Source: Nostoc sp. 106C
GTDB taxonomy: Bacteria; Cyanobacteriota; Cyanobacteriia; Cyanobacteriales; Nostocaceae
Length of the DNA: 64,000 nucleotides
Direction of reading: 5' to 3'
Assembly: GCF_002154725.1 (NCBI RefSeq)
Contig: NZ_MTAW01000053.1
Coordinates: 1-64,000 of the forward strand
Below, one piece after another: positions 58,244 to 64,000 of this stretch. A program made the position numbers and the translations under genes. The notes under the pieces are model-generated. The model saw nothing but the letters and a program-made list of their open reading frames with translations. It was not told where the DNA came from and made no database searches. Positions within the stretch are counted from its first letter, which is position 1, and every line of letters begins with the position of its first letter.

Positions 58244-58370
58244 GCTGATTAATTTGGAGTAAAAATTAAGCGACTGGTACACCTCAAATATAACGGAGAA
58301 GATTTTGTCTATCAAATTGAACACTGCAATTGTCAATGCTAGCCTAAAAACTTCACAACAAGCCCGTGAG

Positions 58371-58456
58371 CGATCGCCTTGCTGACAAACTCAAAAATAA
58401 GGCGTAGATGCGCAGGGGCTTGTGGTTAGACATCGCCTGTTGTGGAAGAGTAGTGC
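58371..58456. repeat. Interspersed repeat copy 1
   Basis: About 86 bases that align with 59335-59420: CGATCGCCTT, then AACTCAAAAA, then GGCTTGTGGTTAGACATCGC, then CTGTTGTGGAAGAGTAGTGC. Partial copies lie at 56731-56750 and 57580-57670. It is not coding. Confidence 0.75.
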
Positions 58457-58498
58457 GATCGCTTGTTGTGGAGTAGACTTCAGGAAGCGATCGCACTA

Positions 58499-58900
58499 CT
58501 AAGGTATTAATGAATGCTTACTTTCTATAACTTGTTCTTGATTAATTTCTTCTCTCGTAGAACTTTCACCATTACGGAATTGCTCAAATAATTCAAAAAA
58601 GTTATTTAACGCGTCTCTTTCATCCGCAGAATAGAAAAGAATAATACTATCCCATCCATGCGAAGAGGTAATCTTAAATCTTTTTTGTATCCAATCTTGA
58701 AATTGATTAAATTCAATCTCTTGTTGAGTTGGCGGTAATCCTAAATCTTCTCTAGAACTCATGTATCCATCTAAAAAAGCTCTCAGCCGAGTAATTGAGT
58801 ATTTACCTAAAAAAATTCCCGGATTTTGTTTGATTTTCTCTAACATTTCATAGAGATATTCTTTATGAATGATAGTAATCGTATGGTTATTGTCTAGCAT
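58499..58900 (-). CDS. Putative immunity protein for the adjacent papain-fold toxin
   Basis: 133 residues. It is not a family I can name with certainty. Conserved-looking features are an N-terminal EYLYEMLEKIKQNPGIFLGKYSITRL followed by RAFLDGYMSSRE, then FQDWIQKRF, and a C-terminal DALNNFFELFEQF helix. It follows the broken papain-fold toxin gene after 12 bases on the same strand. In polymorphic-toxin loci this position is that of the cognate immunity gene, so I infer that role. The frame is intact. The partner toxin is not. Confidence 0.68.
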   Translation of the reverse strand: MLDNNHTITIIHKEYLYEMLEKIKQNPGIFLGKYSITRLRAFLDGYMSSREDLGLPPTQQEIEFNQFQDWIQKRFKITSSHGWDSIILFYSADERDALNNFFELFEQFRNGESSTREEINQEQVIESKHSLIP

Positions 58901-58912
58901 AATCTTTAATAA

Positions 58913-59287
58913 TTAAAAATTTTCTTCTGTTATTTGAAACTGCTGACCGGAATATAATTTATTATAAAATTGTAAATTACCTAGCCATTGCTCTCTGGTG
59001 AGTCCATCAGGATGGTGATTATCAAAAATTATCTCCACTTCATTTATTATAATGGCAATACCTTGATGACGACCGTTAAGAGAAATTGCATCTCCTAGCA
59101 AACTATCATCATAAATATAACTATTACGTCCTATTGCTGAACCTGTATAAAGCTTTATCCGCTTTCCTGGGATTCCTTGCGATATCAATTAATCTTGGAT
59201 AGCCTGAGCACATTCGACACATTCAAGATTTTTGTATTTTTTAATTATTTCTTGAATTTGGTGGATTTGCTCAATACTAATAGCCAA
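58913..59287 (-). pseudogene. Papain-fold toxin (Tox-PL-2-like), interrupted by an in-frame stop
   Basis: Reading the minus strand from TTG 59287 gives AISIEQIHQIQEIIKKYKN followed by LECVECAQAIQD, with the catalytic-Cys motif of papain-fold toxins. Then comes TAA at 59189-59191, and in the same frame LISQGIPGKRIKLYTGSA, NGRHQGIAIIINEVEIIFDN (the HxG...D/N block with the catalytic His) and a QITEENF end. Intact relatives that I remember run without a break through this point (ECVECA...LISQGIPGK...LYTG...NGRHEAIAV...IFDN). So a single nonsense codon, probably TAT/TAC to TAA, divides the active-site Cys from His. Translation from TTG 59188 alone would give a 91-residue piece lacking the Cys. 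Confidence 0.85.
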
Positions 59288-59334
59288 AATTTTTCCTAGA
59301 AACTTAACTGTGAGTGATTATTTTATCACTAAGG

Positions 59335-59420
59335 CGATCGCCTTACAGAAAACCTCAAAAACAAAGCGTAGACGCGTAGCGGCTTGTCGTTAGACATCGC
59401 CTATTGTGGAAGAGCAGTAC
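59335..59420. repeat. Interspersed repeat copy 2
   Basis: Aligns with 58371-58456 over about 86 bases. The bases just before it (59309-59340, GTGAGTGATTATTTTATCAC) also resemble 56703-56735, so the full element may exceed 110 bases. It lies immediately 5' of the broken papain-fold toxin gene. Confidence 0.75.
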
Positions 59421-59488
59421 AATTGCACCATTTACAGAGTATTTCAAGTAAATTAAGTACACGGGTAAGCATATAATGTGACTTTACT

Positions 59489-60268
59489 TTATAAAGATAG
59501 TAATTCCTGAAAAAATTTTTCAGAAAGCCATAAAAATTCTATAACTCCTTGCGAATACTCTACTATAGAATCTTCATCTTCGGAGAATATTGGATCAATT
59601 TCATGGCAAAATTTATGCCTTAGCTCAAAAATTTTATTAACACTCTTCTTCATTTCTTGATGAAGTTTATCATCTATATTAACTACACCTACTTGATTTA
59701 CTTCATCATATTTAATAATATGTGTAGGTTTGATTTTTGTTCTTGTTAAATACAATTCCTCTAAAAAATTTTTATTTGTTAAAATACTAATGTTTTCGTT
59801 TATTGTTTCTAGATTTTTTGTAGGTAAGAGATGCGCTATAAATTCTCCAATTGAAACTGATTTAAGGTCGAGGTTTATTACCTCTTCAATACTCAGTTTA
59901 ATGTCTTTTAACTTGCCTGCATTTTTTTTATAATTAGAACCATAATCAATTAAATTAGCATATACTTGACGGAAGTAACCCTCTATACAAGCTACACAAT
60001 CTATAGGGATATATCGCAATAGCTCCTTTCTCATTCCGCTTGAGTATTGTACTTTTTCATAAGATTGTTTTATCCACTCATCGTAACCTTCACATTCCTC
60101 TAATCCCGAGAAAGACCAACGCTCTATATCTTCTAGAAAATCTACTACATAACGAATCGAACTTATTTCGTTTAGCCTTCCTGAAACCAATTCCCATCGG
60201 TTGGTTTCAGGTGGCACACGACCTTTTTTTGCTAAAATTTCATTAATATAATTACGCTGCTTATTCAT
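59489..60268 (-). CDS. HEPN-like protein of unknown function
   Basis: 259 residues, mostly helical. The motif IFELRHKFCHEIDP near the C-terminus fits the HEPN signature R-x4-H, and IEGYFRQVYANLIDYG supplies the earlier conserved helix of this fold. Many HEPN proteins are RNases, or the toxin half of defence modules. No partner (such as an MNT nucleotidyltransferase) is adjacent. AT-rich and unlike its neighbours in composition, it looks acquired. Preceded by a 300-base gap that holds a chlH remnant. Function is inferred only from the motif. Confidence 0.7.
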   Translation of the reverse strand: MNKQRNYINEILAKKGRVPPETNRWELVSGRLNEISSIRYVVDFLEDIERWSFSGLEECEGYDEWIKQSYEKVQYSSGMRKELLRYIPIDCVACIEGYFRQVYANLIDYGSNYKKNAGKLKDIKLSIEEVINLDLKSVSIGEFIAHLLPTKNLETINENISILTNKNFLEELYLTRTKIKPTHIIKYDEVNQVGVVNIDDKLHQEMKKSVNKIFELRHKFCHEIDPIFSEDEDSIVEYSQGVIEFLWLSEKFFQELLSL

Positions 60269-60403: not shown

Positions 60404-60564
60404 TTATGTTAGAGACGACTCAATACCCTCAATCCGTCCTTGCACTTCTTGGTACAACTCGCGTAACAATTCCAAATTGCTTTTGCTAGGTTCCCAATAA
60501 CCGCTTCCATTCACTTCTAATGTTTATACCATTTTACGGAAAAAATGGGGTTAAGATTCATTAA
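60404..60564 (-). pseudogene. Decayed copy of the chlH 3' end
   Basis: On the minus strand this stretch encodes LMNLNP, then a frameshift, HFFRKMV, a stop, TLEVNGSGYWEPSKSNLELL and RELYQEVQGRIEGIESSLT with a TAA stop. The end of the intact chlH product reads [19 protein letters not shown], then [20 protein letters not shown] and [11 protein letters not shown]. The two DNA copies share an identical 20-mer (60444-60463 and 61472-61491). So it is a second, non-functional chlH end on the far side of xisH/xisI. Confidence 0.9.
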
Positions 60565-60593
60565 GTCTTACTGTGATATTCTCACAGCATTTC

Positions 60594-60929
60594 CTAACTC
60601 ACTGCATAGTCTGTAAACTGTCTCATAAAAGGAGACTGGAACCCTAATACAATATCTTCCTTGGGAACCCCCGCAGCTACTAAATTAGCAGCAATATCAT
60701 CTTCTGTAGCATTCCACTGAAGCCAAATCTTTCCATTTTTAATATCAATATGGATGATGCAACTATGTACCCAGTTTTGAGCTTCCCAGCCTACATGAAC
60801 TATTTGATAATGGTCACGTTCTGTATCAAAAATTGTCTCAACTTCTATATTTCCGTAAGCTGGTTTTTGCTCGCTATGGTCGTGTAATATTTCTTGTACA
60901 AGCTGGCGATACCGAGTTAATTTATCCAT
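60594..60929 (-). CDS. xisI: XisI protein
   Basis: A 111-residue XisI-family protein. It has RYRQLVQEILHDHSEQKPAYG near the start, then DTERDHYQIVHVGW, CIIHIDIKNGKIWLQWN and GVPKEDIVLGFQSPF with a typical VPKEDIVLGF end. XisI was found with XisH as a control factor needed for excision of the fdxN element in Anabaena heterocysts, but these pairs are now known in many copies unconnected with excision. No xisF recombinase or fdxN element end is seen here. The start overlaps the xisH end by 13 bases. Confidence 0.95.
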   Translation of the reverse strand: MDKLTRYRQLVQEILHDHSEQKPAYGNIEVETIFDTERDHYQIVHVGWEAQNWVHSCIIHIDIKNGKIWLQWNATEDDIAANLVAAGVPKEDIVLGFQSPFMRQFTDYAVS

Positions 60930-61336
60930 TGGAAAATCACCTCTCGCTCTACATCATAAATCAGCATCTTAACTTTATTTTCTGCTATCATATCTTTGGG
61001 AAAATCAAGCTGAAAAAATGTATTGTAAGTTGTTAAAGGTACGGCTAAATATAAAACACGCTCTGGTTGTACCCTTCTCAATGCACCTCGATAATTAATA
61101 AACTGTCCTAATGCTGTATGAAATTCTGAGATAGCAGAGGACTTCTGTAAAAAACTTTTGATTTCGACTGCTATTTTTTGTCCTTGGCGTTCTGCGGCGA
61201 TCAGCTTTTCTGCGGCTAAATCAATAGAAAGATTAACTCCTCCCACGCTAATTGTGAGTGGATCATTAGTAATTTGCCAACCGTCTTTCTGTAAAGCTGT
61301 TTTGACAACTTCATGAAAAACATCTTTAGCAGGCAT
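60917..61336 (-). CDS. xisH: XisH protein
   Basis: A 139-residue XisH-family protein with a PD-(D/E)xK-like endonuclease-fold pattern: MPAKDVFHEVVKTALQKDGW, LSIDLAAEKLIAAERQGQKIAVEIKSF (Asp ... Glu-x-Lys) and SAISEFHTALGQFINYRGAL. The core catalytic residues D, E and K look intact. Overlapping xisI on the same strand, it forms the standard xisH-xisI pair. Role outside fdxN excision is unknown; a mobile or toxin-like function has been suggested by their multiplicity, which is inference here. Confidence 0.95.
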   Translation of the reverse strand: MPAKDVFHEVVKTALQKDGWQITNDPLTISVGGVNLSIDLAAEKLIAAERQGQKIAVEIKSFLQKSSAISEFHTALGQFINYRGALRRVQPERVLYLAVPLTTYNTFFQLDFPKDMIAENKVKMLIYDVEREVIFQWIN

Positions 61337-61443
61337 ACATATCTATAATTATATTTCTAATTTTTATGCCGTTGTATTCTTTGTCATCTGTAAACACAGT
61401 TGGGAAAATAGAGGCGTACTCAAGAACGCCTCTATTTTGATGA

Positions 61444-64000
61444 CTATTCTATCCCTTCAATCCGGTCTTCAACTTCTTGGTACAACTCGCGCAGACGATT
61501 TAAATTCTCCTCGCTAGTCTCCCAATAACCGCGTCCATTCACTTCCAATAAAGTTGATACAACTTTGCGGAAAGAATGAGGATTAAGGTTCATCAACCGC
61601 TTCTGCATTTCTTCATCTTTGATGAAGGTTTCGTTGGTATCTTCGTAAATCCAGTTATCCACAGCGCCGGCTGTCGCACTCCAACCCATTGTATTTACCA
61701 ATCGCTTAGAGAGTTCGCGCACACCTTCGTAACCGTGAGATAGCATTCCCTCGTACCATTTGGGATTTAATAATTTAGTACGAGCATCTAAGCGCACGGT
61801 TTCTGATAATGTCCGCACTTGGGCATTAGCTGTGGTGGTATCTGCAATGTAAGATGCTGGTGTTTTACCATCACCCCGCAGACTTGCTACCAGCTTGGTA
61901 GGATCTGAGTCGAAGTAGTGGGAAACGTCTGTCAAGCTAATCTCGGAAGAATCGAGGTTTTGGAATGTCGCATCAGCAGTTTTCAAAGTGCTTTCAAAAA
62001 TCTGCCGGGATTCGTCCATGATTCCGGGGTTATCGGAGTTGAAGGCGAAGGATTTCCGCTTCAGGTACATTTCTTGTAACTCGGCTTCGCTGTCCCAAGT
62101 GCTGTTTTCTACCGCCAAGTTGATATTTGACGAGTAGGAACCAGATGCATTGGAGAAGACGCGGGTTGCTGCTTGACGCAGGTTAATACCCATTTCCTCT
62201 GCTTGTTGCAAAGCGTGTTTGCGCACAAAGTTCATTTCTAAGGGTTCGTCTATCTCCGCCGCCATCTTCACTGCTTGATCTAGCAGGTTCATTTGGTTGA
62301 TGAACAAGTCGCGGAATACTCCAGAACAGTTGATTACAACGTCAATTCTCGGTCTGCCCAACTCTTCTAAGGGTATCAATTCTAACTTGTTCACTCTTCC
62401 CAAGGCATCGGGAACTGGGCGTACACCCACCATCCACATGATTTGTGCCAGTGATTCCCCGTAGGTTTTGATGTTATCAGTTCCCCAAAGCACACAGGCG
62501 ATGGTTTCTGGCCATTTGCCGTCGTTTTCGGCTTTGTTTCTTGCCAACAACCGATCCACAACGATTTTGGCTGATTGTACAGCCGCAGTTGTGGGGATGG
62601 ATTGAGGATCGAGGGCGTGGATGTTCTTACCTGTAGGTAATACATCCGGGTTGCGGATGGGATCGCCACCGGGGCCAGGTAGGATGTACTCACCTTCTAA
62701 GCCTTGGAGTAATCCTCCGAGTTCGTTATCTGCACAAACTTGTTGTAAGCAGAATTCCAAATACTCAAATAATGGTTTGAGGGCGGCGGTATCAACTTTG
62801 GTAAAGCCTGCTTTGTGCAATGATTCTATCCAAGGTTCTTTTTTACCCATGTTAAAGAAATTGAGCTTGGAAACGAGGGAAACTCGTCCTTCTGCGTCGG
62901 TTTGCTCTTTTACCAAGGCACTAACTGCACCACGGGTGGCTAAGGTGATGTCTTGCAATAGCTGGACATCTTCTAAAATGCCTCGGTCATTATTTTGGTA
63001 AATATCGTCAATGTTACGCCCAATGCTGTTGGCGATAATTCGGGGTAAGCTGAGAATTTCTTCTTCTTGACGATCTAAGCTAGCAATGTTAACGAGAGTT
63101 GCGATCGCTTCTTCTGCTGTCGGTGGTTTACCAATGATATGCAATCCACAAGGCAACAACCGAGATTCAATTTCCATCAACTTGCGGTAGACGTTGCCAA
63201 CGATATTATCTCGCTCTTCAGCGTCCATATCCTTAGCATCGGTTTCTGGCAAGTTAATATCTTTGTCCAGGTTCACCATCCGGCATTTATCCATGATGGA
63301 GTTGACAATGGGGATACCACGTCCAGTATCTTTCAGGGTTTGGTAAGAAGCAATCAACTCGCTGAGTTCTTTCAAACCCTTGTATAAACCAGCATTCTCT
63401 GCGGGCGGTGTCAGGTAAGAAATTGTCTCTGCATAACTGCGGCGCTTGGCAATTGTCGCTTCGCTGGGGTTATTCGCTGCGTAGTAATACAGATTAGGAA
63501 TTGTGCCAATTAGTTGGTCTGGATAACAATCACCAGACATCCCCATCTGCTTACCTGGCATAAATTCTAGGGAACCGTGAGTACCAAAGTGCAGTACAGC
63601 ATCAGCTTCCCAAACTTGCTCTAGGTAAGTGTAGTAGGCAGCAAAACCGTGGTGAGGGCTAGCAGAACGGGAGAATAACAACCGCATTGGGTCGCCTTCG
63701 TAACCAAAGGTAGGCTGAACACCGATAAATACATTACCGAAATGTTTGCCGTAAATCAGCAGGTTTTGTCCATCGCTGTTGAGATGTCCGGGAGGTGGGC
63801 CCCAGTTTTCTTCTAAACGTTGGGAGTAAGGTGTCAGTGCTTCATATTCTGGCACCGACATTTTATAGGCGATGTTAAGTTCTGGGCTAGCGTACTGTGC
63901 TTGGGCGTCATGGATGACTTCTTGCATCAACGCCTCGGCTGATTCTGGTAATTCCGGTAAGTCGTAGCCGTTATTCTTGAGGGCTTTCATCACCTCGTAA
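61444..64000 (-). CDS. chlH: Magnesium chelatase subunit H, partial
   Basis: The 3' portion, about 850 residues, of an enzyme normally about 1330 residues; the frame is open to the window edge. ChlH binds protoporphyrin IX and, with ChlI/ChlD, inserts Mg to start chlorophyll synthesis. Visible CobN/Mg-chelatase features include [43 protein letters not shown], and [17 protein letters not shown]. The C-terminus is [20 protein letters not shown]. The stop is 107 bases from xisH, and a decayed second chlH end lies beyond xisI. Length of the missing part cannot be stated from this window. Confidence 0.97.

Follow-up and report, generated by a model that had tools for sequence, protein, structure and literature searches.

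Read along the minus strand, the window (the whole stretch of DNA that was analysed, 64,000 nucleotides in length) presents in succession chlH, xisH, xisI, a degenerate copy of the chlH terminus, and a gene for a protein of 259 amino acids. The gene for magnesium chelatase subunit H, chlH, is present as its 3' part (61444-64000, minus strand, as for the features that follow as far as 59489) and extends past the window; NCBIfam models for this subunit confirm that it ends at 61444, as a sequence-only reading of the same DNA had proposed. The intact 3' end (61444-61624), delimited by alignment and BLAST and referred to here as T, is the copy that completes the gene, and a terminator-like inverted repeat is found 6-39 nt 3' of the chlH stop (61405-61438). 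There follow xisH (60917-61336; PF08814, E 3.7e-57, 192.7 bits for a cut-off of 25) and xisI (60594-60929; PF08869, E 4.2e-47, 159.6 bits for a cut-off of 25), and a short inverted repeat recognized by eye (60571-60587) marks the right end of the cassette, between xisI and the element referred to as D (60414-60564), identified by alignment and BLAST as the displaced, decayed native chlH 3' end. The 259-residue gene beyond D (59489-60268) has a weak match to RiboL-PSP-HEPN, at 25.1 bits, below the cut-off of 28.4. Still further along, a 93-nt direct repeat (58370-58462 and 59334-59426, 84% identity) brackets two small ORFs, 58499-58900 and 58913-59188, and the chlH island of locus L140, from another genus, contains at some 2.9-3.3 kb past the gene an ORF that by eye closely resembles the former. 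ARAGORN detected no tRNA within the window, and PADLOC gave no match for either XisH or XisI. Relatives of known structure exist for both proteins: 3d7q, 2nlv, 2nwv and 2nvm for XisI, and 2inb and 2okf for XisH, the latter two of which may be members of the chlH-type XisH lineage, since both match the XisH of the window at approximately 270 bits.

The sequence-only reading had drawn attention to a decayed, same-strand copy of the chlH terminus past xisH and xisI, and this observation is borne out by gapped BLAST, in which D and the terminus of chlH share 77.6% identity across 156 columns, D being situated 880-1030 nt 3' of the chlH stop. Without gaps, 60398-60521 matches 61426-61549 on the same strand over 124 nt at 73%. 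D encodes the last 45 codons of chlH at 73%, and alignment of 60404-60564 with the chlH end reveals short deletions, an in-frame TAA, and a TCG triplet in the place of the stop codon. The 20-mer at 60444-60463 is, as had been claimed, exactly that at 61472-61491, and these are its two occurrences in the plus strand of the window. When the D fragment was used in a DNA search of the whole genome, the matches consisted of D itself and the chlH end, with no third DNA copy of the latter. The DNA that starts 53 nt past D resembles, at 80% over about 880 nt, that which lies beyond chlH and a Uma2 gene in another genus (L112). Within the same genus as the window, five other genomes carry XisHI or XisI near chlH, and the remnants of D, as judged by eye, amount to about 45 nt in G006, about 20 nt in G002, G004 and G007, and none in G003; because so little of the tail is retained in these carriers, the XisHI insertion in this genus is old.

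In order to place the locus within its family, the C-terminus of chlH served as query against 192 genomes, and chlH loci from 120 of them (L041-L160) were examined, these being roughly the loci whose chlH is most like that of the window, and not a random sample. For each locus the DNA considered comprised the end of chlH with at most 7 kb of downstream sequence, extended to 17 kb for L140 and shorter for a few others, among them L071 (300 nt) and L138 of genome G042, which provides the chlH end only and is counted as having no cassette, although XisHI is present on a contig of equal length (L206). Each locus's own chlH tail was compared with its own downstream DNA, the minus strand serving as control. 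Same-strand matches beyond 60 nt were obtained at 25 of the 120 loci, 24 of which display at least 33 nt (a figure that includes the doubtful L058, -13 to 49, and leaves out L110, with a match of 22 nt), while the control yielded matches at two loci, of 25 and 29 nt; displaced tails are thus more than a product of chance.

The chlH end is occupied by more than one type of cargo. With the cassette class defined by the first gene or fragment that begins no more than 260 nt from the chlH stop, 72 of the 120 loci carry a cassette, which is XisHI in 23 cases, Uma2 in 29, and HigB/HigA in 20, fragments included (for instance an XisI piece in L102 and Uma2 pieces in L073 and L105), and 48 carry none. 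Representatives of these classes match PF05015 (HigB), HTH_3 (the HigA-like partner), and PF05685 (Uma2), and L140 carries a restriction-modification pair composed of a C5 methylase (PF00145) and TdeIII (PF09520), the only cargo of its kind among these loci. The suggestion that xisHI is the cargo stands for the window, although xisHI is not the sole cargo at chlH, and a story that involved XisHI alone was rejected in view of the Uma2, HigBA and other cargo in the same slot. Likewise, chlH tails without xisHI, which had been put forward as evidence against insertion, do exist (L061, L087, L145), yet they broaden the insertion reading. Displaced tails are present at 21 of the 72 cassette loci versus 3 of the 48 cassette-free loci (Fisher p 0.002), the latter three being L058, the restriction-modification island of L140, and the tail array of L148, and 51 of the 72 cassettes show no displaced tail. 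In the L148 array (G063), located 120-640 nt after chlH, the final ~61 nt of the gene together with its UTR are repeated three times in tandem at a spacing of 199 nt, and the copies have no cassette between them.

Genera switch cassettes at chlH: genus g6 carries XisHI nine times, Uma2 six times, Hig twice and no cassette nine times, and in genus g39 the corresponding numbers are four, three, three and three. Combinations are also encountered: in L042 (G006), 62-1046 nt after chlH, Uma2 directly precedes an xisH that is truncated and an xisI that is intact, and in L064 and L103 a complete or partial xisI comes after Uma2, so that recombination between cassettes seems to take place.

Comparison of the region downstream of chlH between relatives with and without a cassette, which had been proposed as a check on the insertion reading, produced empty sites with a single copy of the target for five carriers. 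The DNA after D in L131 corresponds to that directly after chlH in L077, at 90% over 1.9 kb with an offset of 17 nt, and the same register is observed between L064 and L050, L056 and L060, and L153 and L085 (offset 0 in each), and between L087 and L109 (offset 1); in L077, L050, L060, L085 and L109 the first slot holds no cassette. Elsewhere the DNA beyond D is itself a cassette: that of L094 is the Uma2 cassette located directly behind chlH in L101, L119 and L084 (93-94%), and that of L121 is the HigBA cassette located behind chlH in L153 and L051 (91-94%). In L094, L121 and L159, the last of which displays two Uma2 layers, the outer cassettes are still preceded by their own chlH tail, and L140 holds about 10 kb comprising the restriction-modification pair, a tail, a HigBA segment and a second tail. 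These layered loci indicate that arrivals stack at the chlH end, the newest cassette being the one that adjoins chlH. In-register empty sites and layers in relatives support what the sequence-only reading had suggested for the window, namely insertion into the 3' end of chlH, with the gene restored by the incoming copy and the old end displaced.

The same arrangement occurs at other genes. The genome from which the window derives holds 89 Uma2 and 9 XisH matches, fragments included, and the flanks of 79 of these loci (all 9 XisH matches and 70 of the 89 for Uma2) were tested for flanking copies. Besides chlH, four loci were found in which the copies are of the 3' end of a neighbouring gene: XisH at the end of a glycosyltransferase family 2 gene (L166, 45.5 bits), and Uma2 at the end of a convergent 410-codon gene (L173, 59 bits), of a 126-codon gene without Pfam match, where 96 nt are copied at 94% with the stop included (L294, 147 bits), and of a DUF2358 gene, in decayed form (L286, 39 bits). 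Cross-pair controls gave 8 of 1482 at 40 bits and 4 of 4830 when position was also taken into account, several of these being overlapping loci or shared cargo. A further candidate, L284, was rejected as a dispersed repeat, which we take to be of the HIP1 type. The gene of L294 is present without that Uma2 in L321-L324, and a search for the empty site of L173 found the target gene in 2 of 19 genomes. With regard to L286, seven loci of the same genus (L335-L341) have no Uma2 but display a tail-like scar, as judged by eye, and L342 has neither, so that the cargo was either lost or arrived later. In another family of the order, L350 (G197) harbours a distant Uma2 (27%) between the DUF2358 gene and an ArsA-like gene, the same slot as that of L286.

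Among the best 80 XisH loci in named organisms, 77 had sufficient flank for the test. At 40 bits and without the position criterion, 11 of 77 XisHI loci and 31 of 470 control windows were positive, a weak test since tandem repeats of other kinds are present in these regions; when the criterion was applied the numbers were 11 of 77 loci versus 53 of 2103 control windows, and 9 of 70 outside the chlH lineage, with binomial p values of 4e-6 and 7e-5, respectively, which are guide values only because the control windows overlap. Examples include XisHI at the ends of a shikimate kinase gene in Nostoc sp. JL34 (L242), an ABC ATPase gene in a Spirulina MAG (L253), and a convergent 290-codon gene in Brasilonema (L214), as well as a whole small gene copied in Leptolyngbya (L210). 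Flanking repeats that are not tied to a gene 3' end were set aside, both in the genome of the window (L161, L169) and among the named loci (L215, L224, L251, L263, L266). Gene-end insertion is hence not confined to chlH and is visible in a minority of cassettes, which answers the question, raised in the sequence-only reading, of whether other xisHI pairs (such as those of L242 and L253) are flanked by gene-end copies. When the upstream neighbours of the best 80 XisH loci were clustered, chlH appeared five times and every other cluster at most three times. chlH lies directly upstream in five of the seven loci whose XisH is at least 86% identical (L200-L206); in L202 it is upstream behind a Uma2, and in L204 it is absent from the 4 kb upstream. 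Outside cyanobacteria, XisH is found at 57-58% in L266 (Chloroflexales) and L239 (a Parabeggiatoa MAG), the former bracketed by a 203-nt direct repeat of 89% identity.

The chlH 3' UTR follows cassette type across genera, with mean local scores of 43.0 for XisHI, 37.2 for Hig and 36.0 for Uma2, versus 17.5 for unlike cassettes and 15.6 for pairs in which neither locus has one. The coding tail follows cassette type across genera weakly. Among 500 shuffles per cassette type, 3 (XisHI), 2 (Hig) and 282 (Uma2) matched the excess of tail over body similarity, and 62, 46 and 48, respectively, matched that of the tail alone; the XisHI signal corresponds to the last 57 nt or so of chlH. Among carriers, which form few and related pairs in these tests, similarity is seen in the stretch that separates the cargo from D (mean score 22.3 for 15 XisHI pairs and 24.2 for 10 Hig pairs), and the 40 nt to the right of D differ (13.1 for XisHI and 12.9 for Hig, with 10.8 and 10.7 for shuffled sequences). 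The right side of T and the left side of D are thus the element-like ones, a reciprocal mosaic that is the pattern expected from crossovers within the tail. In comparisons between genera, the similarity of XisHI DNA slightly exceeds that of the chlH body (0.905 vs 0.892, XisHI being higher in 99 of 152 pairs), and since the difference is small it offers weak evidence for a transfer of XisHI between genera.

To the observed architecture, with its in-register empty sites, its layers and its reappearance both with different cargo and at genes besides chlH, we add a proposal that we consider probable, namely that a cassette consisting of T, the UTR, and xisH-xisI was inserted in the chlH 3' end, and we infer that such cassettes move by host homologous recombination in the flanking tails. 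The incoming T would complete chlH, and the native tail D, along with the native DNA behind it, would be pushed beyond xisI and subsequently decay. The vehicle could be either a circle that results from a crossover between T and D, or linear DNA that bears a pair of chlH arms. Since host recombination would act in the tails, no recombinase would be needed and chlH would be whole after each arrival. Each cargo was probably first joined to chlH by homology-facilitated illegitimate recombination, involving homology on the chlH side and a short chance match at the far end of the cargo; this type of join is assigned to founding events only, because D would be native throughout had the join been made in one step. 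Cargo of all these kinds (XisHI, Uma2, HigBA, restriction-modification) has a nuclease-like or addictive character that would favour its retention. This account of movement is drawn from sequence comparison, and against it stand the majority of cassettes, which have no tail, and the lack of a tail-over-body excess for Uma2.

An alternative that we regard as unlikely is homing, in which the XisH or Uma2 nuclease would cut an empty chlH tail, and repair from a carrier would copy the cassette in. XisH retains D39, E58 and K60, which are conserved across five aligned XisH sequences and which we infer to be catalytic; both XisH and Uma2 have been called PD-(D/E)XK-type endonucleases (PMC4853749, PMC2701414), and XisHI and HigA tails start near each other in chlH, by eye at about -159 and -176, respectively. 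However, HigBA and lone HigA occupy the same place, XisHI carriers have no distinctive chlH allele at -207 to -147, and Uma2 adjoins Uma2 in L158 and L159, which argues against target immunity; an occupied chlH end continues to be a target, as layered insertions adjoin such ends. The wider suggestion that XisHI and Uma2 are recombinase-free units that home to gene 3' ends, where their own nuclease would break the tail while the carried tail guides repair and keeps the gene whole, is likewise doubtful; if true, essential genes such as chlH would be safe, permanent docking sites. More improbable is the involvement of a tyrosine or serine integrase encoded elsewhere and acting on a fixed core in the chlH tail. 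Integrase-borne genomic islands do often insert at gene 3' ends, but the displaced tails of the family start, by BLAST, at many chlH positions (-238, -223, -175, -152, -124, -86, -69 and -28), no fixed short core was found at both junctions, and no site shared by the other target genes is obvious by eye. Furthermore, in the small units the ORFs of at least 60 amino acids that separate T from D correspond to XisH, XisI, Uma2, HigB, HigA or short unnamed ORFs, with no recombinase among them; the large L140 island, which is partly annotated, could hold one. A tandem chlH duplicate deleted down to its tail, with xisHI between the copies by chance, would account for the strand and the decay of D in a single case, but this dying paralogue of the sequence-only reading is highly improbable, since none of the 120 loci holds a displaced copy of at least 33 nt that extends past -238, as a relic of a full second chlH would, and since empty sites are in register, layers exist, and the arrangement is repeated at unrelated genes.

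Insertion with movement through the tails suggests how cassettes that encode no mobility enzyme could nevertheless spread. XisHI and Uma2 have multiplied in cyanobacteria, and the titles and abstract openings retrieved in literature searches on these families mention neither gene-end insertion nor an account of their spread. Target-restoring insertion would explain their harmless entry, their position behind housekeeping genes, and the use of one slot by unrelated modules, and the chlH end would constitute a readable record of successive arrivals.

Integrase islands such as SGI1 at trmE and those at dusA share with the present loci a gene end that is restored by the incoming DNA; here, in contrast, no integrase is seen, there is no fixed core, and the duplicates are long and of variable length. 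In the fdxN element, xisH and xisI are described as helpers of the recombinase XisF in excision (PMC4874684, PMC4853749); the protein families of the fdxN element and of the window are the same, but here the cassette has no XisF and the XisHI pair is the cargo. Uma2 has been described as a likely solo toxin and predicted PD-(D/E)XK endonuclease (PMC2701414). A closer parallel is offered by the type VI effector modules of Vibrio cholerae, for which layered displacement has been described, and homology-facilitated illegitimate recombination followed by homologous spread has been proposed (PMC5361080). In both systems modules enter beside an anchor that is conserved, the previous 3' end is shifted further downstream, and layers accumulate, although the displaced gene in Vibrio is the toxin itself, whereas here it is chlH, whose function is unchanged by the cargo. 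Finally, restriction-modification units are described as inserting with long, variable target duplications (PMC3874152, PMC3031569, citing Nobusato 2000 and Furuta 2010), and the likeness extends to a small, selfish-type unit that has no mobility gene of its own and is flanked by long, variable direct copies of its target, an arrangement found here at 24 of the 120 chlH loci and at some loci of the own genome and some of the named XisHI loci. A restriction-modification island is even among the cargos (L140); unlike those insertions, however, the cargo is here mostly XisHI, Uma2 and HigBA, the end of a single housekeeping gene receives insertions repeatedly, what is duplicated is a 3' end by which the gene is restored, and the insertions stack.
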